This document shows positions 1 to 33,894 of a stretch of DNA of 33,894 bases, one piece after another. Made by a program: the position numbers and the translations under genes. Origin of the DNA: a virus; the IMG/VR virus record IMGVR_UViG_3300046733_000114, positions 1 through 33,894 of that record; one strand, written 5' to 3'. Below the pieces are notes generated by a model. That model ran no database searches and was not told the DNA's origin. It saw nothing but the letters and a program-made list of their open reading frames with translations. Each line of letters starts with the position of its first letter. The stretch's first letter is position 1.

Positions 1-1
1 C

Positions 2-478: not shown

Positions 479-487
479 GAGATTAAC

Positions 488-4152: not shown

Positions 4153-4167
4153 TGCTTCTCTATAGAG
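4149..4167 (+). promoter_or_regulatory. Phage RNA polymerase promoter P1
   Basis: TTAATGCTTCTCTATAGAG differs from the site at 8934 by one base and carries the CTATAG core of T7-class promoters, giving a predicted first base near G4165. It overlaps the end of the DNA polymerase gene and precedes the first sizeable gap in the replication block. It should transcribe the ssDNA-binding candidate, exonuclease, endonuclease VII and the RNA polymerase gene itself, so the polymerase would amplify its own message. Confidence 0.75.
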
Positions 4168-4182
4168 AACGTAAGTTTCTCT
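4164..4182 (+). promoter_or_regulatory. 5'-end stem-loop of the P1 transcript
   Basis: AGAGAA (4164-4169) and TTCTCT (4177-4182) form a perfect 6-bp stem with a 7-nt loop. With the start predicted at about 4165, almost the whole stem lies at the extreme 5' end of the P1 transcript. Such 5' hairpins can protect phage mRNAs from RNase E, as reported for T7 late leaders. Its function here is inference. Confidence 0.4.
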
Positions 4183-4216
4183 TAATTAAAATCAATTATT
4201 ATATAACGGAGCTAAT

Positions 4217-6072: not shown

Positions 6073-6142
6073 TGAAATACGAGAAGCTGAGAACAAGCCA
6101 GATAAAAAGCGTGAGAGCTTTACTATTAAAGAAACAAAATAA
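5930..6142 (+). CDS. Candidate overlapping small membrane protein
   Basis: A 70-aa frame starts inside the exonuclease gene and ends inside the endonuclease VII gene, in a different frame from both. The ATG has a convincing SD (AAAGGAAG, about 5 nt upstream). The protein has a very hydrophobic run of about 32 residues (positions 8-40), then RLWRRK and a highly charged tail ending KETK. This is the positive-inside layout of a small inner-membrane protein with one or two passes and a cytoplasmic tail. A frame that was only a shadow would less often give this architecture plus a spaced SD. It could be an early inner-membrane effector or a holin-like protein; function unknown. Chance remains possible because both flanking frames constrain the bases. 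Confidence 0.5.
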   Translation: MNGLIGELVARLLAIIVCMVMLIAYGFYVILMTVSMLFYGRLWRRKNNEIREAENKPDKKRESFTIKETK

Positions 6143-6470
6143 TACTTGTCCTTTATGTGAGGGTAAGATAGGTACAGCAAGGTCAAAGAAGAGACCTGCC
6201 CTGGACCATGACCATACTACAGGTATAATACGTGACGTGTTATGTATCAACTGTAATGGTATGGAAGGTAAGATATGGAACCTACTAAGACGTATGAAGA
6301 AAGGAGAGGCTAGAAATATTTTAGCCAAGCTACTTGAATATTACGAGCGTCATGACCATATACCACATGGGCCTATACTACATCCCACACATTTAACTGA
6401 CGCAGAGAAGAGAGACAAACGTAACTTAAAGCAGCGCAAGAAAAGAGCTGAGGCTAAAAGGAACAAGTAA
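6072..6470 (+). CDS. Recombination endonuclease VII (Holliday junction resolvase type)
   Basis: The 132-aa protein matches the endonuclease VII His-Me finger family. A four-Cys zinc site is given by CPLC (C26, C29) and CINC (C58, C61); the core LDHDHTTGIIRDVLC (D45, H46, H48) bears the catalytic His and metal ligand; N62 follows the last Cys. The tail is strongly basic and helical. T4 endonuclease VII resolves branched DNA before packaging, and T7 gp3 does that work in T7, so this enzyme probably fills that role. It begins at a TAATG overlap with the exonuclease and ends at a TAATG overlap with the RNA polymerase gene. Confidence 0.92.
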   Translation: MKYEKLRTSQIKSVRALLLKKQNNTCPLCEGKIGTARSKKRPALDHDHTTGIIRDVLCINCNGMEGKIWNLLRRMKKGEARNILAKLLEYYERHDHIPHGPILHPTHLTDAEKRDKRNLKQRKKRAEAKRNK

Positions 6471-8932: not shown

Positions 8933-8933
8933 C

Positions 8934-8952
8934 TTAGTGCTTCTCTATAGAG
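8934..8952 (+). promoter_or_regulatory. Phage RNA polymerase promoter P2 (late genes)
   Basis: TTAGTGCTTCTCTATAGAG begins 1 nt after the RNA polymerase stop, with the predicted first base near G8950. It is nearly identical to P1 and carries the CTATAG core. A short leader with a perfect AAAGGAGGT SD and the ATG at 8973 follow, so it is the probable start of the virion transcript that runs to the terminator after the capsid gene. Confidence 0.82.
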
Positions 8953-8972
8953 ATATAACGAAAGGAGGTATT

Positions 8973-9119
8973 ATGTCCTACGCAGATTTATCTAAGGACG
9001 ACCAAGTACTTACTGCTATTAAATTTATAGCCGTAGGTTCAGAGATACCCTTGGAGTTACAAGAAGAATTAGGTTCTGAATTAGTTTACGAGGTAAGTAA
9101 TCCTATTAAAGGAGACTGA
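8973..9119 (+). CDS. Small acidic protein, first gene of late transcript
   Basis: This 48-aa protein begins at ATG 8973, chosen because AAAGGAGGT lies just upstream; the in-frame GTG at 8937 falls inside promoter P2 and is rejected. It is acidic (S-K-D-D-Q, E-E-L-G-S-E-L) with no Cys and no membrane segment. Its end holds the SD of the next gene (AAAGGAG in K-G-D). Being first behind a strong promoter with an ideal SD, it should be made in large amounts. I recognise no family. Confidence 0.68.
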   Translation: MSYADLSKDDQVLTAIKFIAVGSEIPLELQEELGSELVYEVSNPIKGD

Positions 9120-9120
9120 T

Positions 9121-9315
9121 TTGAAAATAGAATCAAAGACTACAGACGGACACGTTAGCCAGTCGGTTAGACGTATCCTGACATTTATGACTGCACCCTC
9201 TATCTTACAACGAGGTGAAGGTGAGTTCGGTATAGGTACGGAACATGCTAAGGCTGAAATAAGAGCAGCTTTATCAGAAGTATTAGGGAGGTACCCGTGG
9301 TACGAAGGGCCTTAG
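9121..9315 (+). CDS. Small protein of unknown function, TTG start
   Basis: This 64-aa protein starts with TTG, supported by AAAGGAG about 6 nt upstream and by the tight join to the previous stop. It has a helical middle (H-V-S-Q-S-V-R-R-I-L-T-F) and a second helix (A-K-A-E-I-R-A-A-L-S-E-V-L), then ends Y-P-W-Y-E-G-P. There are no membrane segments or metal motifs. The stop lies inside the next gene (19-nt overlap), so the two are coupled. No family recognised. Confidence 0.6.
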   Translation: MKIESKTTDGHVSQSVRRILTFMTAPSILQRGEGEFGIGTEHAKAEIRAALSEVLGRYPWYEGP

Positions 9316-9728
9316 TATCAGACGTAGACCATATATTAGATATCGCAGAGGTATTTAATGATGACTATGGACTACCAGAAATAAATACAGAAAGAGCGCG
9401 TACTGCTTTATTAGGTTTTATCAAACATGGTACAGTGTTTTGTTCAGGTGCAGGGGCTATAGTAGGCATGACCTACAAAGACCCCTTCAGAGACAGGACC
9501 CTGCTACTAGAGATAGGCTGGTACGCTGATGGTGGAGGAATGACTGGAGTTAAGTTACTTAACGCATTCATTAAGGAAGCCAAGAAATTAGAGGTAGATG
9601 CAGTTATTATGAGCACCCTAAGCAACAGTGACTTACGAATTGGTAAGTTCCTACAGCGACAAGGCTTCTCGGTAGCTGAAACATCCTACACTTTAGAACT
9701 AGGAGGACATATAAAATGTCTATTATAA
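9297..9728 (+). CDS. GNAT-family N-acetyltransferase
   Basis: The 143-aa protein has the GNAT layout: an N-terminal helix pair, strands around residues 44-74 ending LLLEIGWYA, a glycine-rich turn DGGGMTG (about residues 78-84) leading into the helix VKLLNAFIKEAKKL at the acetyl-CoA pyrophosphate site, then VDAVIMSTLSNSD and the R-Q-G-F turn typical of motif B. GTG 9297 is chosen for its SD (GGGAGG, 6 nt). GNATs move acetyl from acetyl-CoA to amines; the target here is unknown and could be host or virion protein. It sits early in the late transcript before the connector and overlaps the next gene by 13 nt. Confidence 0.8.
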   Translation: MVRRALVSDVDHILDIAEVFNDDYGLPEINTERARTALLGFIKHGTVFCSGAGAIVGMTYKDPFRDRTLLLEIGWYADGGGMTGVKLLNAFIKEAKKLEVDAVIMSTLSNSDLRIGKFLQRQGFSVAETSYTLELGGHIKCLL

Positions 9729-10009
9729 CAGGACTACTTGCTGCAAAGCAAGCTAAGAAAGCTAGAAAAGAACAAGAACAAGCCAACCAAGAGGCAGAGA
9801 CCAGGGCTATAGAAGCCGCTGCTTTATCTGAGACCCAGGAAGATACTGGTGCGGATATAATATTTGGTGCAGCTAAAGGTGGACGGACGTTACTACGTAG
9901 ACGCCCGACACAAGGCCCGACAACAGGCCCTAGACCAAGGCTCACTGGCTTAGGCGGCTTTGGTGGGGGAGACCCTGTCAGAGGCTATAACAATATGAGG
10001 CTGCTATGA
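9716..10009 (+). CDS. Putative minor virion/tail protein at the T7 gp7.3 position
   Basis: This 97-aa protein lies just before the connector gene, where T7 has gp7.3 (99 aa, a small tail protein). The N-terminal half is helical and charged (L-L-A-A-K-Q-A-K-K-A-R-K-E-Q), and the second half is low in complexity with Arg/Pro/Thr repeats and a Gly run (G-L-G-G-F-G-G-G). That order, charged helix then glycine-rich tail, broadly resembles gp7.3, but no clear sequence identity can be claimed by eye. SD AGGAGG is good, and the stop overlaps the connector ATG (ATGA). Position is the main argument. Confidence 0.5.
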   Translation: MSIITGLLAAKQAKKARKEQEQANQEAETRAIEAAALSETQEDTGADIIFGAAKGGRTLLRRRPTQGPTTGPRPRLTGLGGFGGGDPVRGYNNMRLL

Positions 10010-11589
10010 GTACTTATCCAAGCCCTAAGGGAAACATTGGTCAAGTCTGGATGCAGATGTACCAAGAGAAAGGTGACTTACTAGAGCGCAGTGAGGCTTA
10101 TGCTAGATGGACTCTAGCTAATATACTTCGGGCTGATAGAGAGACACACCAACAGAATACAGAGATGACTAAAGGTTCTGTGATGATGGGAGCTAAGTGG
10201 GTTAATCACTTAGCTAATAGAATAGTAGATGTACTGTTCCCCTTATCCAGGCCATTCTTTACTGTAGCTATAACCCCTAAAACTAAAACTGCTTTGGAGC
10301 AAGAGAATACTCCAGACCAATTAGCTGCTGTTAAAGAGCAGATAAGAGAAGCTACTACTAGGATAGAAGAAGAGGCTATAAGAAACCTTAGACTAGTAGA
10401 ATATAGACCTGTAGCCATTGAAGCATGTAAGCATCTTATTATTACAGGTAATGCTTTACTTAGAAGAATGCCGTCAGGCAAAAGAATACTGTACTCTATT
10501 GACCGCTATGGAATTAGACGTGATATAGAGGGTAATGCCATTGAAGTTGTACTATATGACCGAAAGAAGTATTGTACCTTTGACCCAGAAATGCAAGCTA
10601 TGATTAGAGAAGTGCATCCTAAGGTTAAAGATGATGACAAGATGGAATTATTATCTCACTATAAAATGGAAGCTGATGGACGATGGTGCTTTAAGCAAGA
10701 AGTAGAGGGTGTAGCTATAGGTAAACAGATTAAGTATGTTAAGAAAGACTTTGACTTACTTCCTCTAGCCTGGAACTTACCTTCTGGTTTTCATTATGCT
10801 ACTGGTTTAGTAGAAGATAACTCTACTACATTCCATAAGCTAGATGTGACCACAGAGGCTCTTACAGATATGGTAGCTATCGCAGCTGACATTAAGTTCT
10901 TTGTTAGACCAGGCTCTGCCTTAGGTTTACAACTAAGAGAACTTAATAATGCACAGCGAGGTGCTTACTTTGCAGGTAATGCAGAGGACATAGCTGTACC
11001 AGAGATTAACTTACGTGGTGACTTAGATACCATAGCTAATATAGTAGCTAAATGGGAAGGTGATTTATCCAGAGTATTCTTATTATCTAATGTACGTGAT
11101 GCGGAACGTGTTACTGCAGAGGAAATAAGGCTTGTAGCCAGAGAACTAGAGAGTTCCTTTGGTGGATTGTATTCTCAACTTGCTTTACAATGGCAACAGA
11201 AGGAAGCTGATTACGCTTTATCTAAAATGAACGTAGGTTCTGTAGGTAATCTTGATGACCAGTTTGAAGTACTAGTTACTACAGGTCTAGAAAGTTTATC
11301 TAGAGAAGGTCAGATTGATAACCTTAGGTTAGCTATCAGTGACTTGCAGATGTTAGAAGCTGTTCCTGAGGAGATTAGGTCTATATTTAATCCAAGTAGA
11401 TTCGGACAGTTTATCTTTGTAAACAGAGGCGTTGCATTAGCAGACTTCTTGAATACTCCTGAAGAGATGCAAGCTATGCAAGAACAAGAGCTTGCTAAAG
11501 CTGGTAGACAAGCTGAGATAGATACTGCTGCTAATGTAGCACAGTATGCTGGTAAATCAGAAATAGATAATATGGACGGTCAACAATAG
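10006..11589 (+). CDS. Head-tail connector / portal protein (T7 gp8-like)
   Basis: The 527-aa protein matches T7 gp8 in size (536) and position. The N-terminus (S-E-A-Y-A-R-W-T-L-A) and the segment around residues 62-80 with W-V-N-H-L-A-N-R and L-F-P-L-S-R-P-F-F fit podovirus portals, where the latter strand forms part of the wing. A long helical region with V-T-A-E-E-I-R and E-L-E-S-S-F-G-G-L-Y-S-Q-L at about 365-390 is also typical. Twelve copies would form the ring at one capsid vertex through which DNA is packaged by the terminase and leaves through the tail. Confidence 0.94.
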   Translation: MSTYPSPKGNIGQVWMQMYQEKGDLLERSEAYARWTLANILRADRETHQQNTEMTKGSVMMGAKWVNHLANRIVDVLFPLSRPFFTVAITPKTKTALEQENTPDQLAAVKEQIREATTRIEEEAIRNLRLVEYRPVAIEACKHLIITGNALLRRMPSGKRILYSIDRYGIRRDIEGNAIEVVLYDRKKYCTFDPEMQAMIREVHPKVKDDDKMELLSHYKMEADGRWCFKQEVEGVAIGKQIKYVKKDFDLLPLAWNLPSGFHYATGLVEDNSTTFHKLDVTTEALTDMVAIAADIKFFVRPGSALGLQLRELNNAQRGAYFAGNAEDIAVPEINLRGDLDTIANIVAKWEGDLSRVFLLSNVRDAERVTAEEIRLVARELESSFGGLYSQLALQWQQKEADYALSKMNVGSVGNLDDQFEVLVTTGLESLSREGQIDNLRLAISDLQMLEAVPEEIRSIFNPSRFGQFIFVNRGVALADFLNTPEEMQAMQEQELAKAGRQAEIDTAANVAQYAGKSEIDNMDGQQ

Positions 11590-11597
11590 GAGAGTAT

Positions 11598-12422
11598 ATG
11601 ACTGATGAAAGTAACCCACATTCAAATGTTTCAACTGAAGAGCGTAAAGCTGCTGAGGTAGCTGAACAAGCAGCTGCTAAAGAAACCCCAGTTGAAGAAA
11701 CCCCAATACAAGCTGTGTCAAACACAGAGGTCAAGGCTAATCCTGTAGACCCTGAAGCAGATGCAGCCTTGGTAGAAGATGATAAAGAGGAAGGAAAGCC
11801 TGACGATGGTGAGGCTCCTCTTGATACACAAGCTTGGGGAGATACAAATAGCGAAGTAGGAAATAGTGTTCTGAGATTAATACAGAACGCTGGAGGAACA
11901 CCCGAACAGGCGAAGGCATTATTGTTTGACGCTGTACGGGATAATGATATGTCTAAGATAGACAAAGCAGAGCTTACTAATTTAGTAGGTGAATCAAATG
12001 CTACAATCATTATGTCAGGTGCGGCCTCCTATGCTACAGAGATAGCCGCTAAAAACGTAGAGATAGCTAAGACAGTTAATGAAGCCGTAGGTGGCTCAGA
12101 AAACTGGGAAGCTATACAGAACTGGTCAGACAATTCTGACTTGCCTGATGCAGAGAAAGCAGAGTACAATGAACTCTTATCTGCAGGAGGTGCTAAAGCT
12201 AGGTTCGCAGCTACAGAACTATTAAATAAATACAATGCCGATTCTGGCAACACACAAATTACGGACACAAACCGAGTTGACCCTGATGTTGATACAACTA
12301 CCCAGTCCGAAGCTATAACTGCACGCGAATATTATAAGCGTATGGCTATGGCAAACCGTAAAGGTCAAGATACAACAGCTATAAAAGCGGCAAGAGCAAA
12401 AGGCCGTAAGCTAGGTATCTAA
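11598..12422 (+). CDS. Scaffolding (capsid assembly) protein (T7 gp9-like)
   Basis: The 274-aa protein lies between portal and capsid, as gp9 does in T7 (307 aa). The first ~80 residues are very acidic and Ala/Pro-rich (runs of E-E, D-D-K-E-E, D-P-E-A-D-A); the middle is helical, and the last ~45 residues carry Arg and Lys (Y-Y-K-R-M-A-M-A-N-R-K), fitting the basic C-terminal helices that bind coat protein. It directs procapsid assembly and leaves before DNA packaging. SD AGGAG lies before the ATG. Sequence identity is low, as is usual for scaffolds, so position and composition carry the call. Confidence 0.88.
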   Translation: MTDESNPHSNVSTEERKAAEVAEQAAAKETPVEETPIQAVSNTEVKANPVDPEADAALVEDDKEEGKPDDGEAPLDTQAWGDTNSEVGNSVLRLIQNAGGTPEQAKALLFDAVRDNDMSKIDKAELTNLVGESNATIIMSGAASYATEIAAKNVEIAKTVNEAVGGSENWEAIQNWSDNSDLPDAEKAEYNELLSAGGAKARFAATELLNKYNADSGNTQITDTNRVDPDVDTTTQSEAITAREYYKRMAMANRKGQDTTAIKAARAKGRKLGI

Positions 12423-12431
12423 CCTATAAAC

Positions 12432-12445
12432 TGGGAATAATCCCA
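12432..12445 (+). other. Short hairpin in the capsid gene leader
   Basis: TGGGA, ATAA, TCCCA forms a 5-bp stem with a 4-nt loop in the 47-bp gap between scaffold and capsid genes. There is no T run, so it is not a standard terminator. It may mark a processing site or stabilise the capsid message; the SD (AAGGAA) and ATG lie 16-25 nt further on. Confidence 0.3.
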
Positions 12446-12469
12446 CAACATTAAATATAAGGAATTAAT

Positions 12470-13447
12470 ATGCCTATCCCTTCAGACTCAACTCACTTGA
12501 GTGCTCAGGCTACATCAGAAATGATTGAAGAGTATGCTGGCGCAGTGGATTCACAATTCGCTAAGTCGTCCATCATGCGTGGCTTCGTAAACATAGATAA
12601 CCTACAAGGTACAGACACAAAGATTAAGCGTCGTGTCGGACGTACCGTTCTTAAGAAGGTAGTAGCTGGTGTAAGACCCGATGCTGCTCCAACTTCATTC
12701 GGACGTACAGCCGTAACAGTCGATACGATTTCATTAGCTCGCGATAACCGTGACTTATTGAATGAGTTCCAAACAGACTTTAACGCACGTCAACAGTTAG
12801 GTATGGACCACGGTAAAGAACTTGGTAAACTATTTGACCAGGCTCATATTATCGCAGCTATCAAAGGTGCAGCAGCAGCTGCTCCAACAGATGCAGATGG
12901 TACTAACTACAACGGTGCATTTGGTGCAGGTTCAACAACTACAATGGCCGCATCTAATGATGACCTAGACCCAACTAAATTCTATGAAGCTATTGCTGCA
13001 CAGATAACAGCTATGGAAGAAGAAGACATTGACATTGAAGAATGCGTTGTGTTCGTGCGTCCAACATATCAAGACGTACTACTTAATAATGACAAATTAC
13101 TTAACCGTGATTTCTCTTCAGACAACGGTGACTTTGCAAATGGTACATTCAGAACGCTTAAAGGTGTTCCGATTGTTTCTACTACCAGAATACCAACTGC
13201 TGCTATTACTAACCATGTAATGTCTGACGCTAAGAACTCTAACTTCTATAACGTAAGTGCTGCAGAAGCTAGAAGTAAAGCTATCATTATGCACCCTAAA
13301 GCTCTATTCGCTGCAGAGACTATACCATTAACTTCTAAGGTATACTACGACGATAAAGAACTTCAGTGGTTCATCGATTCATACTTAGCATTCGGTGTTA
13401 ACTATGACAGACCAGATTGCGCTCGCGTAGTCCGTTCATTCGACTAA
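12470..13447 (+). CDS. Major capsid protein (T7 gp10A-like)
   Basis: The 325-aa protein (T7 gp10A is 345) follows the scaffold and precedes a terminator, as in T7. It starts L-S-A-Q-A-T-S-E-M-I-E-E-Y-A-G-A-V, has the early strands I-M-R-G-F-V-N-I-D and G-T-D-T-K-I-K-R-R-V-G-R-T, and ends in the beta-rich V-N-Y-D-R-P-D-C-A-R-V-V stretch common in T7-type coats of the HK97 fold. Spelling is cleaner than in neighbours (many GGT, GTA, CGT, AAC codons), as expected for high expression. No slippery extension comparable to T7 10B is possible because the terminator begins about 10 nt after the stop. Confidence 0.95.
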   Translation: MPIPSDSTHLSAQATSEMIEEYAGAVDSQFAKSSIMRGFVNIDNLQGTDTKIKRRVGRTVLKKVVAGVRPDAAPTSFGRTAVTVDTISLARDNRDLLNEFQTDFNARQQLGMDHGKELGKLFDQAHIIAAIKGAAAAAPTDADGTNYNGAFGAGSTTTMAASNDDLDPTKFYEAIAAQITAMEEEDIDIEECVVFVRPTYQDVLLNNDKLLNRDFSSDNGDFANGTFRTLKGVPIVSTTRIPTAAITNHVMSDAKNSNFYNVSAAEARSKAIIMHPKALFAAETIPLTSKVYYDDKELQWFIDSYLAFGVNYDRPDCARVVRSFD

Positions 13448-13458
13448 ATAATTAACGA

Positions 13459-13491
13459 GGCTCTCCTGTTTATTCGGGAGGGCCTTTTTTT
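13459..13491 (+). terminator. Intrinsic terminator after capsid gene (T7 T-phi position)
   Basis: GGCTCTCCT (13459-13467) pairs with GGGAGGGCC (13476-13484), with two G-U pairs and an 8-nt loop, and seven T residues follow. This is a standard intrinsic terminator. T7 has its only major phage-polymerase terminator at exactly this point, just after gene 10, where it reduces tail and core gene expression relative to the capsid. Confidence 0.88.
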
Positions 13492-13499
13492 GTTTTATA

Positions 13500-13536
13500 G
13501 ATTCCTGGGCTTTTGCTCTCCGTGGGTTCGGGAATC
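13500..13536 (+). other. Second hairpin between capsid terminator and tail tube A
   Basis: GATTCC (13500-13505) pairs perfectly with GGAATC (13531-13536), and the stem can extend inward to 11 bp with three G-U pairs. It lies on the read-through transcript just past the terminator and 28 nt before the tail tube A ATG. A processing site such as an RNase III site, or a leader structure, is plausible. No T run follows. Confidence 0.4.
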
Positions 13537-13563
13537 TTTATAACAAAAAAGAAAGGGACTACT

Positions 13564-14196
13564 ATGCCTACAACGGCCAACATTAAATTAAGTTTAATAA
13601 ACAGTATGCTACGCACACTAGGGTCTGCTCCCTTAGCTGGTGCAGATACTTCGCATCCTGATTATATCACAGCTAATGCTGTACTAGAAGAAGTCATAGA
13701 AGATTTCTCAAGTAAACCGCTATGGTTTAACAATTCAATAGAAACTCTATCGCAAGATAACGATGGTAGAGTTCCAGTACCTACTAATGCTGTAGCAGTT
13801 GACCCCACAGATGGGTCTAATCTAGCTGTTGCTGGTAACTTCTTATACAATGTAGATAAGAGAACAGACATTATAGGTAAAGATGTAGAGTGCTACGTTC
13901 ACAGAGAAATAGAACTAGAGCTTATGCCCAGGGAAGCCCTTAAGTTTATTAGGGCAGCTTGTAGATTTAAGTTCTATGCAGACGAAGATGGTGGTGTGCA
14001 GAAGTTACAAGTATATGCTCAGGCTGCACAGTTGTCAGAGCTAGAACTTAACTCTGTAAACATAGCACGTATGGATATGAACTTCTTTGCCTCAGGCTCT
14101 GGAAGAACATTCTTTATACCTAGACCCTCTAACTATCAACACATTGGTAGTAGTGCTGGTTCAGGTGGAGTTAAAACAATATTTCAAACTAGCTAG
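13564..14196 (+). CDS. Tail tubular protein A / head-tail adaptor (T7 gp11-like)
   Basis: ATG 13564 gives 210 aa (T7 gp11 is 196); the longer TTG start at 13513 lies inside the hairpin loop and is rejected, while AAAGGG precedes the ATG. The N-terminus K-L-S-L-I-N-S-M-L-R-T-L-G-S-A-P and the later A-N-A-V-L-E-E-V-I-E-D-F-S, plus W-F-N-N-S-I-E-T-L, fit the gp11 family. It forms the ring joining the portal to the tail nozzle. The gene lies past the terminator, so it depends on read-through. Confidence 0.88.
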   Translation: MPTTANIKLSLINSMLRTLGSAPLAGADTSHPDYITANAVLEEVIEDFSSKPLWFNNSIETLSQDNDGRVPVPTNAVAVDPTDGSNLAVAGNFLYNVDKRTDIIGKDVECYVHREIELELMPREALKFIRAACRFKFYADEDGGVQKLQVYAQAAQLSELELNSVNIARMDMNFFASGSGRTFFIPRPSNYQHIGSSAGSGGVKTIFQTS

Positions 14197-14204
14197 GAGA
14201 AGTC

Positions 14205-16784
14205 ATGGCTGATACAAATACATTAGGAAGTATGTTGCAAGGTATTAGCCAGCAACCTCCTCACATAAGACGCGATGGTAAAGTAACAGAACAAGTTAAC
14301 TTAATGTCAGACGTTGTAGAAGGAATAAAAACTAGACCAGGTTCTAATTTACTGGGCGTAATAGAAGAAGGTACTGAACAGGTTATAATATATAAGCCTG
14401 GTCAAACAGGCCCTGCTACTGTGTATACAGGATTTAGAACTGATGGTAAATTCTATACATTTACAATGGATGGTAACACTTATCAAATAGGTATAAGTAA
14501 ATTTGGTATAGAGATACTAAATAAAGAAGGAACTTTACTTACAACAAACTTAACTACAGCTGCTGAAGATTATATAGATGATATACAAGAAGACTTAGCT
14601 GTATATGTTTATGACAACGGTGAAGAGACAGTTGCGTATGTATTAAACAGAAACAAAATAGTCGCTATGGATAACAGTGCTGCTACTATTGCAGCCCAAG
14701 AAGCTGAGGTAATAAAGGACGTAGGGCTAGTAACTTCTCTAGGTGGACAGTTCTCACATACTTATAGTGTATATGTTAATTATGATGCAGGTAGTTTTAG
14801 TGGGTCATATGCAACACCTAACGGAACAGGAACAGGTCACGCAGCTCAAACAACCTCTGACTACATTGCCAGCCAGTTGCAAATTTCTTTAGCAGCATCT
14901 GCAGCTAATGTTGATGCTAATATTTCTGTAGCTGTTCAAGGGTCAGTAGTAAGTATTACGGGTGCTCCTGGAATAACTATTACAGTATCAGATGGTGAAG
15001 GTGGTGCTACATTAGTAGAATCAAGTAACGTAGCTAAGAACACCGACAAGTTAGCTAACACAGCACCACACGGTACGCTAGTTAAAGTACATGGATTAGA
15101 CGGAACAGCAGATGATTTCTGGATGCGTTTTGAATCTAACTACACTAATACAGTAGGCTCTGGATTTGGAGATGAGGGTATATGGAGAGAGTGGTATAAC
15201 GTATCCGAAGCAGCAGCTTTAGATGCTGGAACTATGCCAATGAAAATGACTCCTAATGCTGCTGGAACTATTATGAATATAGATGTAGCTCCTTGGACAC
15301 GGCGACGTGTAGGAGATTCAGAGACTAATCCTGAACCTGCTTTTGTAGGTAAAAAAATAAAAGATATAAGTGGCTTTCAATCTAGACTTGTTACTGTAGC
15401 AGGACCTGTTACTAACTTCTCTGTTACTAATGAACCAACAGACTTCTTTAAGAACTCTGCTGTGGCTGAGATAGCAACTGACCCGATAGAAATAATATCA
15501 ACAACTGCTGATGAGTTCAGTCTTTTGTATATAGTACCTTTTGATAGGGACTTAATATTGTTTGGGGATAAAGTACAGTTCCTTGTTCAAGGTGGCAGTG
15601 CATTAACTTCATCTAACGCTTCATTAGTACAGACAACTGCTTACGATATACAAGATGGCGTTAGACCTGTAGCTACAGGTAGAACAGTTCTGTTTCCATT
15701 CTCTATAGGAGAATACGGAGGAGTAAAAGAGTTCTATACATCTGGTAACATAGAGGCTAATCAAGCTATATCAATTACATCTAGTGTACCTAAACTTATA
15801 GAGGGTACTATAGAACAGATGAAGTACTCTGATACTGCTGATACATTACTTATAAAGTCTAACTTAAATAAGTGGACATTGTATGGCTACAAACAGTTAT
15901 GGGATGGCGAAAAGAAACTACAATCCGCATGGTTTAAATGGGAGTTCCCTGGAGAAATAATTAATTATAACTTTGATAAGAATAAGTTATATGTATTACA
16001 CTTTAAAGGTGGAGTAACTAGTGGGCATTACGGAGAAGTATGTCAAGTTGTATTAGACTTAGATAGTCCTAATGCAATTGGATTAGATTATCCGTTAGCT
16101 CTAGATTCATATGAAATATATAATGGAGATGGTACACCTGATTACGGTGTTAGTATGGGCAGAACTAATATGCCTAACTATACAGACCCAGATGGTTACG
16201 TTTATTCTGTGTATCAATTCCTAGATAACAACCTAGTTATTATACAAGGTGCTGGGTGTGATAGTCCAGGGCAACCTGCAGAACATTTAACACCTACTGC
16301 TAGTGCATCTAATACTTATACAGATGGTACTGCTATGTGGTATGACTATAAGTTTCCTATTGCTACTGTACCTAAGAACTCTACACTATACGCAGGTTAT
16401 GATATAACCTCTACATTTAAACCTACTATGCCGTTTATACGTGATAGTAATAACATAGTAATAAGATTTATAAGGTTAGTTATATCTAAGTTTATAGTTC
16501 ATTTTAACAACAGTGGTCCTATGACTGCTACCGTAGGTAGTAAGTATAGAAGCGCATCTGCACAGATAACATCTGTACGTACTTTATCAAACGATGGAGT
16601 AGGATTAGCGTTTGACCCAGACGACCCTGAGGGGGACGGAATAAAGAGTGGAAGTTTTGATGTTCCTTTTAGAGAACAATCAGATATTTCTGAATTAACA
16701 ATTACCGCTAATGGTGGTGTACCTATTAACATAAATGAAATAGAATGGGTAGGCCAAGTTCGTGGAGGAAGAAGGAGGTTATAA
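14205..16784 (+). CDS. Tail tubular protein B / nozzle (T7 gp12-like)
   Basis: The 859-aa protein (T7 gp12 is 794) begins with L-G-S-M-L-Q-G-I-S-Q-Q-P-P-H-I-R-R and then Q-V-N-L-M-S-D-V-V-E-G, a hallmark of this family, followed by T-R-P-G-S. The rest is beta-rich, and the end (Y-R-S-A-S-A-Q-I-T-S, then V-G-Q-V-R-G-G-R-R-R) is typical. About 130 residues after position 180 are Ser/Thr/Ala/Gly-rich and repeat-like (A-A-S-A-A-N-V-D, G-S-V-V-S-I-T-G), perhaps an added surface domain. Six copies form the tail nozzle that contacts fibres and receptor. SD AGGAG; the stop overlaps the next start (TAATG). Confidence 0.92.
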   Translation: MADTNTLGSMLQGISQQPPHIRRDGKVTEQVNLMSDVVEGIKTRPGSNLLGVIEEGTEQVIIYKPGQTGPATVYTGFRTDGKFYTFTMDGNTYQIGISKFGIEILNKEGTLLTTNLTTAAEDYIDDIQEDLAVYVYDNGEETVAYVLNRNKIVAMDNSAATIAAQEAEVIKDVGLVTSLGGQFSHTYSVYVNYDAGSFSGSYATPNGTGTGHAAQTTSDYIASQLQISLAASAANVDANISVAVQGSVVSITGAPGITITVSDGEGGATLVESSNVAKNTDKLANTAPHGTLVKVHGLDGTADDFWMRFESNYTNTVGSGFGDEGIWREWYNVSEAAALDAGTMPMKMTPNAAGTIMNIDVAPWTRRRVGDSETNPEPAFVGKKIKDISGFQSRLVTVAGPVTNFSVTNEPTDFFKNSAVAEIATDPIEIISTTADEFSLLYIVPFDRDLILFGDKVQFLVQGGSALTSSNASLVQTTAYDIQDGVRPVATGRTVLFPFSIGEYGGVKEFYTSGNIEANQAISITSSVPKLIEGTIEQMKYSDTADTLLIKSNLNKWTLYGYKQLWDGEKKLQSAWFKWEFPGEIINYNFDKNKLYVLHFKGGVTSGHYGEVCQVVLDLDSPNAIGLDYPLALDSYEIYNGDGTPDYGVSMGRTNMPNYTDPDGYVYSVYQFLDNNLVIIQGAGCDSPGQPAEHLTPTASASNTYTDGTAMWYDYKFPIATVPKNSTLYAGYDITSTFKPTMPFIRDSNNIVIRFIRLVISKFIVHFNNSGPMTATVGSKYRSASAQITSVRTLSNDGVGLAFDPDDPEGDGIKSGSFDVPFREQSDISELTITANGGVPININEIEWVGQVRGGRRRL

Positions 16785-17362
16785 TGTCCCCTGGTGCAAT
16801 ACAAGCGGCTGTTGGTATAGGCACATCCCTAACGGGATATATGCTTGCTAAACAGCAACATAAATCAGCTTTAGAAAATCAAAGACATAGAAATGCTATT
16901 TTAGACATTAATACTATGCTGCAACTTAATGACCTAGAGCTTCAAGAAATAGACCTTAGAAATATAAGCAGAGACGCTAGTAAAAGTATTCAACTGCAAA
17001 CACTACAACAAGAAGGAGTAGCGGAAGTATCCGCTGCTGCTGCAGGAGTTGCTGGTGGTTCAGTTGACGCTGTTATGAGAGGTATAAAAAGAAACTCCAT
17101 GCTTTCACAGGCTCGACGAATAGAAGATACTTCTACTAGTTATAGAAAGTTAGGTAAACAAAGACAGAACATTAACATAAATAGAATTCTTGGTGAAGAT
17201 AGAACTGTTATTCCTGGCCCTACTGTAGGTGGATTATTACTAAGTATGGGTACGTCTGTTGCAGGAGCTTACGCTGATAATACTAGCTTTGGAGATACTA
17301 AATTAGGGAGTTTCTTTGCAACAAAAGAGAATCCATTTAGTAAATTATTAGGAGGTTCGTAA
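16784..17362 (+). CDS. Internal virion protein (T7 gp14-like)
   Basis: Starting at ATG 16784 (SD AAGGAGG; the upstream in-frame ATG 16745 lies inside the nozzle gene), the protein has 192 aa, close to T7 gp14 (196). It begins with an Ala/Gly-rich segment (A-I-Q-A-A-V-G-I-G-T-S-L-T-G), then a long amphipathic helical zone, then S-A-A-A-A-G-V-A-G-G-S and M-R-G-I-K-R-N-S. In T7, gp14 is ejected first and forms the outer-membrane pore of the DNA ejection channel. Position between nozzle and the two large core proteins fits exactly. Confidence 0.82.
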   Translation: MSPGAIQAAVGIGTSLTGYMLAKQQHKSALENQRHRNAILDINTMLQLNDLELQEIDLRNISRDASKSIQLQTLQQEGVAEVSAAAAGVAGGSVDAVMRGIKRNSMLSQARRIEDTSTSYRKLGKQRQNININRILGEDRTVIPGPTVGGLLLSMGTSVAGAYADNTSFGDTKLGSFFATKENPFSKLLGGS

Positions 17363-20300
17363 TGAAAGGTACAGAAAGAAGACAAGACATACAAACTGGA
17401 CAACAGGAATCTCAAAGAGCTGGGTTAGCTTCAGGAGGTGCGCCTACTTTTAGCTCTGGAACTAGAATGAATGAAACTATAAACACTTATACTGCTGATG
17501 TAGTAGGGGCGGTTTCTAATTTTACTAGTAAAGGATTTCAATCTATAATTAATAAGAAACAAGCTGCTAATAAACTTAAAGGTGAAGCAGCTGCTATTTC
17601 AGGTATTGCTTTTGAAGATTTAGATTTCAAAGGAAATAAACATGCCTTAAATGGTTATAAAGTTATGTCTGCTAATAGAACTGCTGCAGAATTAAGAAGT
17701 AATTTACTTACTGACTTAAAAAATGGTGATTATGAATTAGATACAGATGATTATACTACTATGTTATCTGATACATATGAAGCTGCTATAGATGGATTAC
17801 ATCCTGATGTAGCTGCTATGGTTCATGACCAATATGTTAAAGGTTTACCAGAAATAATACATCAACATACTTCACTTAATGCTGACTATAAATTAGGACT
17901 TAATAAAGAAGAATTATCTAGTAGTATAATACAACAGTTAGGCTCTGATAATCTTAACGATACAGATATAAAAGATACTATGACTGTACTAAATACAGCC
18001 TCTGAAGCTTTATCTAAAGATGATAAAAATAGAGTACTAGCAGGCGCTGTTATTAAGAGTTTAGTAGATGGTGATGTAAGTGTTTATGATAATTTTACTA
18101 AGACAGAGGAATATAAAAATCTTCCTAGTGAAATGAAACTACAGATTAGAGGTAACTTTCAAAGCCAACAACAAAGGGCTTTATCTAATTTATCTTTTGA
18201 AAGTAAAGAGGCTATTAAAGTTATTGAAAATAGAAGAGCTAATCTTTCTCTAGACCAATATTCTCGACAAGAATTTTATGATGATTTAAGAGAAGAATTA
18301 AAAAAGAATGAATTACTTCTTAGAGGTGCTATTGCAGGTTCTGCTTATGAATCAGTTAAACTAAGGGAAGATACTACTCAAGCTGAAGCTATTTATAATT
18401 ATAAAAATGCTATGTTTAAGGGCAATACCTTACAAATGGCTACTTTCTTAACAAGTGTAGGTATTATTCCTGATGGAATGTCCCAGGAAGAAGCCACTAA
18501 ATATATACAATCTATGTTTGATGGTGATACTAAACTTAAGATAACAGGTGATATGGATACTGATGAATCAGCTGAGGTTATTATAGCTGCTTTATATGGT
18601 ATAGACGCTGCTAATGATTGGATATCTGACGGTAAAAATAAAACAGATAAGCGTTATGTAAATGCTACTGAAATGTTTAATATCAATTCAGGTACTAAAG
18701 GTATTACTTCTGATAAGAGAGTACCATTACTAGTTTCTGATATAGAAGCTAAAAAAGTTCTTAAAGAAAATGCAGCTGATTTAAATTTTAGAGAGATAAA
18801 AGCTTCTTTGGATTTCCAGTTAAATAATGGTAAGATTAATACAAAAACGTACGAGTCTTTGATAGGTAAAGCTATTAATGCGGCGTTCGTAACTAAGACT
18901 ACTGCTAAATCAGAAGCTGCTATTAATACTGTTTTTGCTCATAAACAAGTTGTTACAAATGATTTTTATGAGCAAAAACTTTCTAAAGCCCTTTCTACGG
19001 CTAACTCACTTGTAAGAAACTATACTAGAAACCAAGAGGATAGAGTTAGTAAAAACATTATTGTTCCTGAAGACGTTTTAACAGAAGAATCTAAAGTTTT
19101 ACAAGACTCCGTTAGAACTGCTTTAAAAGGTTCAGGGATTCCTTCACATCTGATTAATATAAATCAATTAGACGGATTGGTATCTGAACGAGTTGATAAG
19201 GCTGAGATTACACGCAGTAGAACAGAGGCTGAGTTAATAGCTGGTATTCAGGACCTAGACCTTAAGGGTGAAACTACTCCAGAAAGGGAAAATCTTTTAA
19301 AAGACAGTTTTAATTATAACCGCGCTAGTGGTAACATACTTACTTCTGTTAAGGCACAAGGTATTATACCTAAACAAATTGATTTCTCTCCTTCACTACA
19401 AAAGTGGTTTAATTCTACGGATGAACAACCTAATGAAGCTGTAGTAAATGATGTATTAGATTATATTAAGGTTCTTGATGACCCTAAATATACTAACTTA
19501 GCTTCAGACTTATATAAAACAAGTCTAGGTAAAGTACAGATAAATGATATAGTAAAAAGAATACCTGTTGCACAGAGAAGTTCTATTACTCCAGAACTAG
19601 TTAGAGATGCCTTTATGAGTGCTCGTAAAGAACAAACACGTTCTAGATTTGATGTAAGACAAGCTGATGTGATTCCTGAGGACGCGGCAACAAAGGCAGC
19701 TGCTAAAACAGCTAAAACTGCTGTGCTGGATATTAACAGGGCTGTACCTTATGAAAGGGCTGGTGCTACTGATATAATAAATAATGTAAGGCGAACTGCA
19801 ACATATGCGTTAGGTATTCATGACTTTAGTGCTTGGTTTGGTGGACAAGGTAATAGAACTCATAGACAAGAAAATATTCTTAAACGTGATGTTAACAATC
19901 CAGACAGTGAACTCTCTACATTTATTAATACTTCTGTTCCACTTAGAATTGCTGATGAACTGAAGTTAAATAAAGGTATGTCTAAAAATCAAGTAGAACA
20001 GTTATCAATACAATTAGTAAAAGATTATACTGTAGTTGTAGGAGAACAAGCGCTTACTTCTAATGTAAATGGGCCTACTCTTTCAGAGGTTATTTACGGA
20101 GTTAACGCTGCTAAAGTTACAGACCCTAGTATATTTAATAAAGCTGTTTTAGATGTTGTTGGAGAATATGCTAATCAACCTCCAGAAGGTAATCCGTGGT
20201 CTATTCTAAGGGATAGGTCTAAAAAGTTAGCTGCCTTCCTTCCAGGTGGGCGTACTACAGACACTTTAACGGATATATCTACTCAGAAGAACAGAACCGA

Positions 20301-29161: not shown

Positions 29162-29443
29162 ATGGCAAAAGGAGCTGCAACAGAAAAGAATCTTGGTAAC
29201 TTACATTCAACACTTACAACAATATTTACTAAAGTTTTAGAAAATGAATTAGACCAAGATATTATAGAAACTAGTCCTGCTATGCTATCAGCTATTGCTA
29301 AGTTCTTAAAAGATAATGACATAAGTTATGATTCTGCTCAAATAGATGAACTAAGTGAACTTGAACAAAAGCTTAAAGCTAAGAAAGCAAACAGACCTGA
29401 CTTCTCTAATGTTACTGCGCTACCTTTAACGGGTACTGAGTAG
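29162..29443 (+). CDS. Terminase small subunit (T7 gp18-like)
   Basis: The 93-aa protein (T7 gp18 is 89) sits directly before the large terminase. L-G-N-L-H-S-T-L-T near the N-terminus, the helix P-A-M-L-S-A-I-A-K-F-L-K-D-N, and the K-L-K-A-K-K turn fit gp18-type small subunits, which bind concatemer DNA and load the large subunit. SD AAGGAG lies before the ATG, and only one base separates the stop from the next start. Confidence 0.86.
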   Translation: MAKGAATEKNLGNLHSTLTTIFTKVLENELDQDIIETSPAMLSAIAKFLKDNDISYDSAQIDELSELEQKLKAKKANRPDFSNVTALPLTGTE

Positions 29444-29444
29444 T

Positions 29445-31262
29445 ATGGGGCGTGATGCTAGGGAAATGAATAAAGCAGACCGTATTAAGGAGCTGCTACT
29501 TATTCAGGAGGCTTACCCTAACTTCCAAGACTTTTTATACGACGTTATGGTTAATCTTATGGGATTTAACTGTACCAATAATCAATTAGATATGGCGAAC
29601 TACTTACAGTACGGTCCGTTATATAGAATGATACAGGCGCAGCGTGGCCAGGCTAAGACCACGGCTACTGCTGCGTATGCTGTATGGAGACTAATACATA
29701 ATCCAACAGCTAGGATACTTATTATATCTGCTGGTGATACAATGGCTAAGGAGATTAGTAATTGGATTATCCAGATACTAAATGGTATGGAAGAGCTGTC
29801 ATGTATGCTGCCAGATAAGTCTGCAGGAGACCGAGCATCTGTTACTGCATATGATATACACTATGTACTAAAGGGACCTGAGAAGTCTCCTAGTGTAGCG
29901 TGTGTGGGTATTACATCTAACCTGCAAGGTAAACGTGCTGACGTACTTATTGCAGATGATATCGAGAGTGCTAAGAATGCTTTGACTGCAGATGCTAGGA
30001 TGAAGCTTACGAACTTAACCAGGGACTTTACTTCTATATGTTCACAGGGAGATATTATATATCTAGGTACGCCACAGAGTGTAGACAGTATATATAATGC
30101 TTTACCTGGACGTGGCTTTGATATACGTATATGGCCTGGTAGATATCCTACAGAAAGAGAATTAGATAACTACGGAGAACACTTAGCTCCTATGATATCA
30201 GAGGCAGTTAAGAAAGACCCGTCACTGGCAACAGGTGCTGGTCTACTCGGTAACAGAGGTAAGCCAACAGATAGTGTTATACTAGGAGAAGATATCCTAG
30301 TTAAGAAAGAGATTGACCAGGGAGCTGCTTACTTCCAGCTGCAGCATATGCTAGATACTAGACTTGCAGACGAAGCTAGGTATCCCTTGAAACTAAATAA
30401 ATTAATCTTTATGAATATAAATAAAGGTAGAAGTCCTATACTTCTTAACCACCAACCGTCTATACATAACAGAGTACCGACTCCAAGTGACTATCCTATT
30501 AGAGACCCTATGTATATGTGCTCTGACTTTGGTACTGAGTATGGGGAGTTCACAGGTACACATATGTATGTTGACCCTGCTGGTGGTGGACAGAACGGAG
30601 ATGAGACAGGCTATGCTGTAACTAGGTTTTTAGGTAATAAGGTTTACCTGGTAGCTGTAGGCGGTGTACCTGGAGGACTAGAAGCTTCTGACTTAGAAGA
30701 ACTAACTAGAGTAGCTGTTAAATGGAAACCTAATAAGATATCCATAGAACGTAACTACGGTAATGGTGCTTTGCAAAAAGTATGGGAACCGACTTTATAC
30801 AAGGCGATGAAGGAAGTAAATGCTGGCGTAGAGATAGATGACCCCTGGGAAACAGGGCAGAAGGAACTACGTATAATTGATAAGCTAGAGCCTGTTATAG
30901 GTTCAGGTAGATTGGTTGTAGAGCTAGACCTTATCCAGGATGACTGGGCTTCTGTGCAGAAGTACTCTGCTGTAAACCGAGCTTCGTATAGTTTCTTTCA
31001 CCAGCTTGCTAAAGTAACCAGGGACCGAGGTAGTCTGTCACATGACGATAGACTTGATGCGGTAGCTGGTAGCGTAGGTAACTGGATAGACTTACTAGCT
31101 GTAGATGATTTGCAAGCGCAAGTGGCAGCAGAAGCACAACGATATAGGACTATGATGGAAGACCCGTTAGGAAACGGTAGACCTATTAATAACTATAACT
31201 CAATGTTCGGCTTGAATACTTTAAGTCCGAATGTACTTAATAATTTAAAACAACGATACTAG
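29445..31262 (+). CDS. Terminase large subunit (T7 gp19-like)
   Basis: The 605-aa packaging motor (T7 gp19 is 586) has an N-terminal ATPase with Walker A RGQAKTT (R67-T73) and Walker B DVLIADDIE (D171, D172, E174), then an RNase H-like nuclease with YVDPAGGGQNGDE (D377) and HDDRLDA (D534, D535, D538). The nuclease cuts concatemers into genome units and the ATPase drives DNA into the head through the portal. The SD is weak; tight coupling with the small subunit probably sets expression. Confidence 0.97.
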   Translation: MGRDAREMNKADRIKELLLIQEAYPNFQDFLYDVMVNLMGFNCTNNQLDMANYLQYGPLYRMIQAQRGQAKTTATAAYAVWRLIHNPTARILIISAGDTMAKEISNWIIQILNGMEELSCMLPDKSAGDRASVTAYDIHYVLKGPEKSPSVACVGITSNLQGKRADVLIADDIESAKNALTADARMKLTNLTRDFTSICSQGDIIYLGTPQSVDSIYNALPGRGFDIRIWPGRYPTERELDNYGEHLAPMISEAVKKDPSLATGAGLLGNRGKPTDSVILGEDILVKKEIDQGAAYFQLQHMLDTRLADEARYPLKLNKLIFMNINKGRSPILLNHQPSIHNRVPTPSDYPIRDPMYMCSDFGTEYGEFTGTHMYVDPAGGGQNGDETGYAVTRFLGNKVYLVAVGGVPGGLEASDLEELTRVAVKWKPNKISIERNYGNGALQKVWEPTLYKAMKEVNAGVEIDDPWETGQKELRIIDKLEPVIGSGRLVVELDLIQDDWASVQKYSAVNRASYSFFHQLAKVTRDRGSLSHDDRLDAVAGSVGNWIDLLAVDDLQAQVAAEAQRYRTMMEDPLGNGRPINNYNSMFGLNTLSPNVLNNLKQRY

Positions 31263-31272
31263 GGAGAACCCA

Positions 31273-31650
31273 ATGTCTAAGAAAGACAAACCGACCCAGA
31301 CTAAGCCAACTGTAAGAGTAGTTGGTACTAATTCTAATAAACTACCTTGGCCCCAGGATAACTCAGGCTCAACTCAGGAACTACGTAGAGGTGCTGTACG
31401 CGCCATAGGACGTATCATGGGTTCAGAAGATAATCTAAAGAAAGTACTAGAAACGCTAGAGGTAGCTAGGCTGTATGCTATAGAGCGTATGGAAGAGCAG
31501 CAAGTAGAAATGAAAGTTAAAGTAAAAGCAATGCAAGACCGTAAAGCTCTTAATGCAGAGCTATTGAAAAGTGAACTAAGACAAAGAGTAAAGTCTAAGA
31601 AGGCTGAGATAAAACGTGTTGAGTCTGAGATAAAGAAGTTGTTGAGCTAA
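31273..31650 (+). CDS. Coiled-coil protein of unknown function between terminase and endolysin
   Basis: The 125-aa protein has a polar, disordered N-terminal third (Lys/Thr/Pro/Asn-rich), a short helical segment (R-R-G-A-V-R-A-I-G-R-I-M), then about 60 residues of highly charged helix (E-E-Q-Q-V-E-M-K-V-K-V-K-A-M-Q, K-K-A-E-I-K-R-V-E-S-E-I-K-K). No signal peptide or membrane segment, so it is not an ordinary Rz spanin, although it lies near the lysis genes. SD GGGAGA; the stop overlaps the endolysin start (TAATG). It could be a packaging or virion accessory. Confidence 0.7.
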   Translation: MSKKDKPTQTKPTVRVVGTNSNKLPWPQDNSGSTQELRRGAVRAIGRIMGSEDNLKKVLETLEVARLYAIERMEEQQVEMKVKVKAMQDRKALNAELLKSELRQRVKSKKAEIKRVESEIKKLLS

Positions 31651-32258
31651 TGAACTTAGCAGCATTCTTTGATTCTGTACGTCCCTTTATGAAAGACAGT
31701 AAGCTAACTACTGCACAAGTAGTAGGCTTTGAATGTCTTATAAATTCTTGTTTAGAGTCTGACCTTACATTAGAGCATATAGCATATGTACTTGCTACTG
31801 CTTATCATGAGACAGGTGGACTCATGGAACCTGTAAGAGAAGGGTTCTGTAAGACCGACGCTGGCAGCCGTAAGGCAGTAGCCAGGTTATACGAGAAGGG
31901 TATAATAAGCGCAGATTACAGTTTACCACAGAGTAACGGTAAGAGCTATTATGGCCGAGGGTTAGTACAGCTAACACATCTAAGTAACTATGCAAGTACA
32001 GGACATGCACTAGGGTTAGACCTGGTAACGTATCCAGACCTTATGCTAGACTTAGAGGTATCAGTACGCGCTATGATATGGGGTATGAAGACAGGGAGCT
32101 ATAGAAACAAGCGTCTGTCTGACATGTTACCTTATGAAGAGCCAACGTATGCAGAGTGGACTAAAGCTAGAGGTATTATAAACGGTGACGTAGGAAAGAA
32201 TGGTCCTATGATAGCTGGGTATGCTACTAAGTTCTACACAGCATTGAAGGAGATGTAA
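31650..32258 (+). CDS. Endolysin, GH19 chitinase/lysozyme-like glycosidase
   Basis: The 202-aa protein shows the lysozyme-like GH19 pattern: AYHETGG (E54, the probable catalytic acid), then Y-Y-G-R-G-L-V-Q-L-T-H (residues 100-110) and N-Y, and R-G-I-I-N-G-D near the end. The family cuts the glycan strands of peptidoglycan. No signal peptide, so it needs a holin; a holin gene follows with a TAATG overlap. This differs from T7, whose lysozyme gp3.5 is an amidase that also inhibits the RNA polymerase. Confidence 0.86.
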   Translation: MNLAAFFDSVRPFMKDSKLTTAQVVGFECLINSCLESDLTLEHIAYVLATAYHETGGLMEPVREGFCKTDAGSRKAVARLYEKGIISADYSLPQSNGKSYYGRGLVQLTHLSNYASTGHALGLDLVTYPDLMLDLEVSVRAMIWGMKTGSYRNKRLSDMLPYEEPTYAEWTKARGIINGDVGKNGPMIAGYATKFYTALKEM

Positions 32259-33154: not shown

Positions 33155-33170
33155 GGTCTGTAGACATAGC

Positions 33171-33216
33171 CTAGAAAGCTCTGTAATGCTCACTGAGAGC
33201 GATATGGACTTTCTAG
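33171..33216 (+). other. Long-loop inverted repeat upstream of P3
   Basis: CTAGAAAG (33171-33178) is the perfect complement of CTTTCTAG (33209-33216), with an inner CTCT/AGAG pairing (33179-33182 region with 33196-33199). It follows the last gene by 16 nt and has no T run. A 3'-end structure protecting the late mRNA or a protein-binding site would fit. Confidence 0.45.
33172..33201 (+). repeat. 30-bp imperfect direct repeat, copy A
   Basis: Starts TAGAA, then CTCT, AATG and ends CTGAGAGC. It matches copy B at 33553-33582 at about 22 of 30 positions with no gap, 381 bp apart, in a region without genes. The shared blocks are TAGAA, CTCT, AATG and CTGAGAGC. Confidence 0.45.
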
Positions 33217-33237
33217 GTATACTTGTATATTTATGAA

Positions 33238-33256
33238 TTAGTGCTTCTCTCTGAGG
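33238..33256 (+). promoter_or_regulatory. Phage RNA polymerase promoter P3 (phiOR-like)
   Basis: TTAGTGCTTCTCTCTGAGG shares the first 13 bases with P2 and P4 but ends CTCTGAGG rather than CTATAGAG. No gene lies downstream before P4, so it may serve replication priming or packaging, like T7 phiOR near the right end, rather than gene expression. Confidence 0.65.
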
Positions 33257-33380
33257 ATATAAGCAGCGTTTATAAAAAAATGGTACAAAATTGTGAGGGG
33301 GCATCTACATATAACGTGCGAAAATTTCCCCCATGCCACCCCGCTATACAATATATCTATAAAAAAAGCTGTATCAGCGC

Positions 33381-33423
33381 GTTAATACACTAACATAGTA
33401 ACACAATAGCACGTTAACACGTG
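33381..33423 (+). repeat. Patch of short TAACA/GTTAA repeats with an inverted repeat
   Basis: GTTAATACAC, TAACATAG, TAACACAATAG and GTTAACAC follow one another, and CACGT, TAAC, ACGTG (33410-33423) is a perfect 5-bp inverted repeat. T7 has arrays of short imperfect repeats next to its terminal redundancy; this patch is in the matching place but shorter. Confidence 0.35.
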
Positions 33424-33457
33424 AGCACTATCTCTTTTCAGCACTAGTCCGAATTGC

Positions 33458-33476
33458 TTAGTGCTTCTCTATGAGG
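33458..33476 (+). promoter_or_regulatory. Phage RNA polymerase promoter P4 (phiOL-like)
   Basis: TTAGTGCTTCTCTATGAGG shares 13 starting bases with P2 and P3 and the GAGG end with P3. It lies 220 bp after P3 on the same strand with no gene between. If early genes follow beyond the window, this is the counterpart of T7 phiOL near the left end. Confidence 0.68.
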
Positions 33477-33552
33477 GAAGGATATATATTAAACACACAC
33501 ACCCCCCCCATATAAAATAGAAGTAAAAGAGAAGTAAAGGTTACATAGGGCA

Positions 33553-33582
33553 TAGAAGCCTCTAGAATGGCCGCTGAGAGCC
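33553..33582 (+). repeat. 30-bp imperfect direct repeat, copy B
   Basis: Second copy of the element at 33172-33201, sharing TAGAA, CTCT, AATG and CTGAGAGC. Unlike copy A it is not flanked by the CTAGAAAG/CTTTCTAG inverted repeat. Confidence 0.45.
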
Positions 33583-33703
33583 AAAAGTTGTTTATGGTAC
33601 TAGATGACCTAAAAAGTATTTCCGTTGATTTAGCTATATTTGCCTACCTATCTCATTTTTTTTTATAGTCTAAAAAGCTAAGTATTATGGGGGCTATAGA
33701 AAG

Positions 33704-33712
33704 TTATCCACA
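33704..33712 (+). promoter_or_regulatory. Perfect DnaA-box sequence
   Basis: TTATCCACA is the strict E. coli-type DnaA box. It is followed by AGGT and then an AT-rich stretch (33715-33750). A near-copy, TTATCCATA followed by GGT, lies at 33854-33862. One 9-mer could occur by chance, so binding is only suggested. Confidence 0.4.
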
Positions 33713-33894
33713 GGTAAAATAAAAATAAATTCAATTATTTTGTATTTTTCGCTTGCAATAAAATTCAGTCTATGCTCTAAGTAAATCAACAAATAACAAC
33801 ACAAGGAATTCACATATAGCAGATATTCAATAAATCGGGTTTAGTTTAATGGTTTATCCATAGGTCACCTTAGCATATTAAGACATCACTCGCG

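Follow-up and report, generated by a model that had tools for sequence, protein, structure and literature searches.

A predicted terminal-repeat junction close to the end of an uncultured autographivirus record

The metagenome-derived IMG/VR virus record IMGVR_UViG_3300046733_000114, analysed over its whole length of 33,894 bp (hereafter the window), encodes in this order an exonuclease, a DNA polymerase, an endonuclease VII, an RNA polymerase, the portal and capsid proteins, the small and large terminases, an endolysin and a holin (Table 1). The large genes lying between those for capsid and terminase are presumed to encode tail proteins on the basis of position alone, and the primase and other left-arm genes are missing from the window. 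Analysis of the gene content revealed several traits of the Autographiviridae, namely a single-subunit RNA polymerase gene and terminases, portal and capsid of the T7 type. The source phage is an autographivirus with a phiKMV-like gene order, the left arm of which is missing from the record. PF11123, the family of the small terminase, is presumably that of T7 gp18, and the nearest named large terminase is that of MedPE-SWcel-C56 (61%). The endolysin (31650-32258) carries a glycoside hydrolase family 19 (chitinase class I) domain. IMG/VR contains 20 related loci, with a terminase 97-100% identical in 18 of them and 63% identical in two. Megablast of window positions 1-20000 against named phages gave no match, and the search for a host link through genome contigs yielded 24 pattern matches with no relative among them.

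Table 1. Coordinates of the genes, signals and predicted features in the window.
Feature	Position	Strand	Basis or remark
P1, putative phage promoter, end of DNA polymerase gene	4149-4167	+	23.9 bits
Single-subunit phage RNA polymerase	6470-8932	+	phrog_414, E 8.7e-260
P2, putative phage promoter just after RNA polymerase gene	8934-8952	+	24.2 bits; 3 mismatches to consensus
Small terminase, T7 gp18 kind	29162-29443	+	PF11123 DNA_Packaging_2, E 5.6e-18
Large terminase	29445-31262	+	phrog_17672 and phrog_38
Last right-arm ORF, 55 aa	32987-33154	+	near-identical ORFs in L002 and L008
Hairpin after last late gene	33169-33218	+	-26.6 kcal/mol, z -5.6
P3, putative phage promoter, right end, phiOR-like position	33238-33256	+	exact TTAGTGCTTCTCTNTGAGG
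Terminus box, aligned with Palo, Paso and T7 ends	33277-33334	+	local alignment
Predicted direct terminal repeat (DTR), about 126 bp, single copy	33304-33429	+	terminal signals at both borders
C-run, repeat position 25	33328-33332	+	position rule
Period-8 array (short-repeat patch), inside predicted repeat	33383-33430	+	lag-8 identity 0.68
ATCTCTTTT, resembling the concatemer-junction pause box	33430-33438	+	sole window copy, either strand
P4, putative phage promoter, left end, phiOL-like position	33458-33476	+	exact TTAGTGCTTCTCTNTGAGG
AT-rich left-arm start	33477-33894	+	read by eye; record ends ahead of first left-arm gene

The original prediction had read the end of the window as a T7-like junction between right and left genome ends, and the elements it listed, from the last gene through hairpin, P3, short-repeat patch and P4 to the AT-rich tract, are all present in that order. 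The 19-base consensus TTAGTGCTTCTCTNTGAGG has three matches in the window (P3, P4 and, with three mismatches, the site at 8934), where 0.08 would be expected. A profile trained on P3 and P4 of the window and of seven relatives retrieved four window sites at 23.9-37.6 bits, the next best reaching 9.2; in 100 simulated windows the best score averaged 12.2, with a maximum of 20.8. The sequence thus points to a family of putative phage-specific promoters, an Autographiviridae trait. Copies of P1 and P2 are also present in the related contigs G006 and G010.

None of 200 shuffles was as stable as the hairpin downstream of the last late gene, a structure that may serve as a terminator or processing site; the corresponding piece of L010, cut within the outer stem, gave no stable fold (z 0.1). 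After P4, positions 33550-33581 form a 75% copy of one arm of this hairpin, which was dropped as a second hairpin because its own fold is not stable (z -0.2). The period-8 array exceeds chance, its lag-8 identity being reached at any lag from 3 to 16 in none of 2000 shuffles; it is absent from the output of Tandem Repeats Finder, whose sole entry is 33513-33538. In the left-arm leader, beside an AT-rich stretch, positions 33704-33712 hold the only window copy on either strand of TTATCCACA, which we take to fit the DnaA-box consensus without mismatch; this stretch is shared by L010.

The left border of the predicted repeat lies at 33303/33304, where GGGGGCA is followed by TCTACATATAACGTGCGAAAATTTCCCCCATGCC. 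Annotated repeats were available for three relatives, Paso (371 bp), Palo (260 bp) and Lullwater (196 bp, both ends), those of Paso and Palo being PhageTerm predictions according to their records. They begin with TCT or TCC and carry TTTCCCCC(A/G)TAGG about 20-22 bases inside. The repeats of T7, phiKMV and SP6, recovered by comparing both ends of each record, harbor a box of the same kind, in SP6 as a variant. In the window, TTTCCCCC occurs once, with no other copy on either strand. When the known ends were locally aligned with the P3-P4 interval, the scores were 55 for Palo, 39 for Paso and 35 for T7, against shuffle means of 18.0, 17.4 and 19.4; the real score was matched by 0/300, 0/300 and 1/300 shuffles, respectively, and by none of 330 other plus-strand pieces of the window. 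The similarity extends over some 60 bp at the left border for Palo and Paso and is weaker for T7. The predicted end of MedPE-C56 scored 41, a value equalled by none of 300 shuffles and 330 pieces, while the ends of phiKMV, SP6 and Lullwater did not align with the interval above chance. When 678 pieces from both strands were compared, the junction scored highest for Palo (55, against 30 for the next non-overlapping piece) and Paso (39, next 26) and narrowly so for T7 (35 versus 34); the ends of phiKMV, SP6 and Lullwater picked other places.

Comparison of the known repeats also revealed a rule of position. All 12 of them (Paso, Palo, Lullwater, T7, phiKMV, SP6, T3, K1-5, LKA1, gh-1, P-SSP7 and Syn5) have four or more consecutive C beginning at repeat position 24-29, and in the window the run begins at position 25, the background elsewhere in the same records being 36 of 6000 positions. 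The last six, added once the pattern had already been noticed, have an exact repeat at both record ends and a C-run at 25-27. The first three bases of the repeat vary (TAT in P-SSP7, GCT in Syn5, CCT in gh-1). No earlier description of this rule was found in open-access titles and abstract openings, a scope outside which most of the older papers on T7 and T3 packaging sites fall. A short two-block profile was also built from six known ends. It recovered the true start in three of three cases when one end was left out (Paso, Palo, Lullwater), and among seven other named records its top match fell in the gap between right and left arms in four (MedPE-C56, Atu_ph02, RHph_X3_9 and RHEph02), its second match in ParMal1, and no match there in Cd1 and Paku. 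In the window it ranked 33304 first, yet the score of 13.95 did not exceed the best scores of 200 simulated windows, which averaged 14.0, and the profile missed the border in G006, which has a different repeat interior. As this profile did no better than chance and failed in G006, we relied on the longer alignments and the position rule.

At the other side of the predicted repeat, ATCTCTTTT is one base off the 7-base consensus ATCTGTT, described as the class II terminator consensus and found too at the concatemer junction of phage DNA (PMC11617373). In six of the 12 known repeats (T7, SP6, Palo, T3, K1-5 and Syn5), ATCTGTT starts at the distal border or no more than one base away from it; related boxes are present at or near this border in Paso, Lullwater, gh-1 and P-SSP7, LKA1 has a CTCTTTT box, and no ATCTGTT-like box was seen at the distal border of phiKMV. 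All eight relatives that reach this point contain ATCTCTTTT, 122-126 bp past the left border. It recurs 132 bp past the border of the sister contig G011 (76% terminase identity), and ATCTGTTT is found 400 and 491 bp past the borders of G013 and G012. With a left border at 33304 and ATCTCTTTT at 33430, the repeat would thus measure about 126 bp, its right border being predicted at about 33429/33430 with a few bases of doubt. Both border signals fall inside the interval from about 33257 to 33457 to which the repeat had been assigned, but the size of about 200 bp implied by that interval is not retained, and the short-repeat patch, which had been placed between the repeat and P4, sits instead at the distal end within the repeat. 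A real junction with a longer repeat that includes P4, for example from 33304 to about 33519, would accommodate both the near-identity with at least six relatives, which persists to about 33505-33519, and the size of known repeats, mostly longer (160-414 bp). We nevertheless consider it very unlikely, given that ATCTGTT marks the distal border in half of the known repeats, corresponding here to 33429, and that the sister contig has the same box at a similar distance.

The related contigs reveal what follows the end of the window. Nine contain P3 and eight of these also P4, 217-229 bp apart, the ninth stopping before P4; eight contigs cross the junction. Past it, L002 and L008 encode small unknown ORFs, then a Toprim primase and the large chain, with a glutaredoxin domain, and small chain of a ribonucleotide reductase; the families of these left-arm proteins were assigned from L002 alone. 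In G001 and G005, the sequence leads on from the left border through left-arm DNA that includes the primase and both reductase chains, and arrives at the counterpart of window position 1 after about 9.0 and 10.0 kb, respectively, with no late gene beyond the junction. The right arm therefore meets the left arm there in the relatives, and the expectation that early and not late genes would follow was borne out in these contigs only. From the arm lengths of G001 and G005, the window would lack some 8.4-9.4 kb, provided its own left arm is alike, and on the same proviso the unit genome would amount to about 42-43 kb plus one extra repeat.

Ten more distant records were also searched, and stretches of seven were compared. 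The border motif is present in the junction of G011, G012, G013 and G019; G014 has an alignment match only and G018 a weak match, and G016, whose contig ends about 2 kb past the terminase, has no border match. Distal boxes are clear in G011, G012 and G013 only. The motif also has a match at the opposite end of G013, which was attributed to chance. In the distant relative G018, a long array built from units of roughly 10 bases (GTAAGAAYAG) is found near both contig ends (L086 and L087).

Given the terminal sequence similarity, the promoter family, the layout conserved in relatives and the left-arm genes found past the junction in relatives, we conclude that the stretch is very probably the concatemer junction of a T7-type autographivirus, made of the right end, one copy of the repeat and the left end. 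A circularly permuted genome packaged by a headful mechanism, in which the region would act only as intergenic control DNA containing two phage promoters and a start site of replication, appears extremely improbable. Contigs do pass through the region unbroken and no record was found with two repeat copies, as such a genome would have it, but the terminal signals of fixed-end phages sit at the expected places, both terminases are of the T7 kind, and P-SSP7, too, had been considered permuted before its ends were sequenced (PMC3350473). A search for relatives repeated at both contig ends found no end-repeat class given for any of 21 records, and no record examined carries two copies. End overlaps of 99 bp in MedPE-C56, 127 bp in ParMal1 and 90 bp in RHEph02 were excluded as repeats, since they look like assembly k-mer overlaps or arbitrary cuts.

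The concatemer-junction reading leaves room for two origins of the single copy. It may reflect genuine concatemer junctions from infected cells instead of, or besides, collapse by the assembler, and an origin in which collapse is not needed is a serious possibility, if somewhat short of an even one. At usual read lengths, single reads can span a repeat as short as 126 bp, and eight contigs cross it; on the other side, collapse at a small k-mer size produces an identical contig, and the stop of L013 fits a physical end, although several other contigs also end in the vicinity. The last base of L013 corresponds to window position 33421, so that 8 bp separate it from the predicted right genome end, and this contig end may be physical or due to chance.

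Comparison of the junction in nine relatives (L002, L003, L004, L007, L008, L010, L013, L014 and L015) revealed a mosaic repeat. Before the left border, they are 88-100% identical to the window, but in the first half of the repeat identity falls to 42-57% in eight of the nine, L003 remaining at 100%. Among otherwise nearly identical phages, at least three divergent versions of the interior are thus present between nearly fixed borders, an arrangement that an exchange of interiors as cassettes could produce. The joint reading, that T7-type phages share a terminal grammar, with a C-run starting 24-29 bases into the repeat and a box like ATCTGTT marking its far border, and that in this genus the interior is a swappable cassette, is one for which we see the chances as evenly balanced. 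If true, terminase and polymerase would control only the borders, and read data would not be needed to call termini in uncultured phages.

In T7, transcription runs across the repeat until it pauses at the distal box, which is also where the concatemer is cut by terminase. By analogy, we infer that the phage RNA polymerase would start at P3, transcribe through the repeat and pause at ATCTCTTTT on the distal border. A terminase of the T7 type would then cut concatemers at the ATCTCTTTT border and at the GGGGGCA/TCT border by the C-run box, and cutting at both would yield virions with one repeat per end. P4 would be located a short way inside the left end, where T7 and T3 have phiOL. Even for T7, completion of the other repeat copy is described as not fully understood (PMC3350473).

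A terminal-repeat junction at this place would be ordinary phage biology, and the likely ends appear to be readable from sequence alone. For an uncultured phage genus, the probable physical genome ends can in this way be placed within a few bases from nucleotide data only, and the record end at 33894 is an arbitrary stop, not a genome end. The terminal rule could help to correct circular or fragmentary autographivirus records, a correction for which P-SSP7 needed experiment.

Among known systems, the Rhizobium phages Palo and Paso share with the window the phiKMV-like gene order, the location of the repeat (predicted in the window) right after the last late gene and a closely similar left-border box; ATCTCTTTT at the predicted right border of the window also resembles the ATCTGTT-type box that adjoins their repeats, but these repeats are longer (260 and 371 bp) and their hosts differ. 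The repeats of T7 (160 bp) and T3 (231 bp) have the C-run at position 26 and ATCTGTT at the right border, with phage promoters, like the putative ones of the window, on both sides of the junction in T7 and on the left-end side in T3. Unlike in the window, these promoters lie further from the repeat and phiOR is ahead of gene 19.5; the original prediction had assumed the T7 order to be gene 19.5 then phiOR, which the T7 record contradicts (phiOR at 39229, gene 19.5 at 39389-39538). The RNA polymerase gene, which lies early in T7, follows the replication genes in the window. MedPE-SWcel-C56 (Kafavirus) has the same terminus box predicted at 574, in an intergenic gap, and a pause-like box 196 bp on, but it is a circular metagenome record without mapped ends and its terminase is about 39% divergent. 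The Prochlorococcus phage P-SSP7, marine and T7-like, has its C-run at 27; unlike those of the window, its ends were verified by experiment, and its repeat starts with TAT rather than TCT. Its genome was assembled as a circle until end sequencing revealed a 206-bp repeat, a history indicating that assemblers do close such genomes into circles (PMC3350473). Short terminal repeats, of 159-173 bp, are also described for cultivated marine cobaviruses (PMC6775973).
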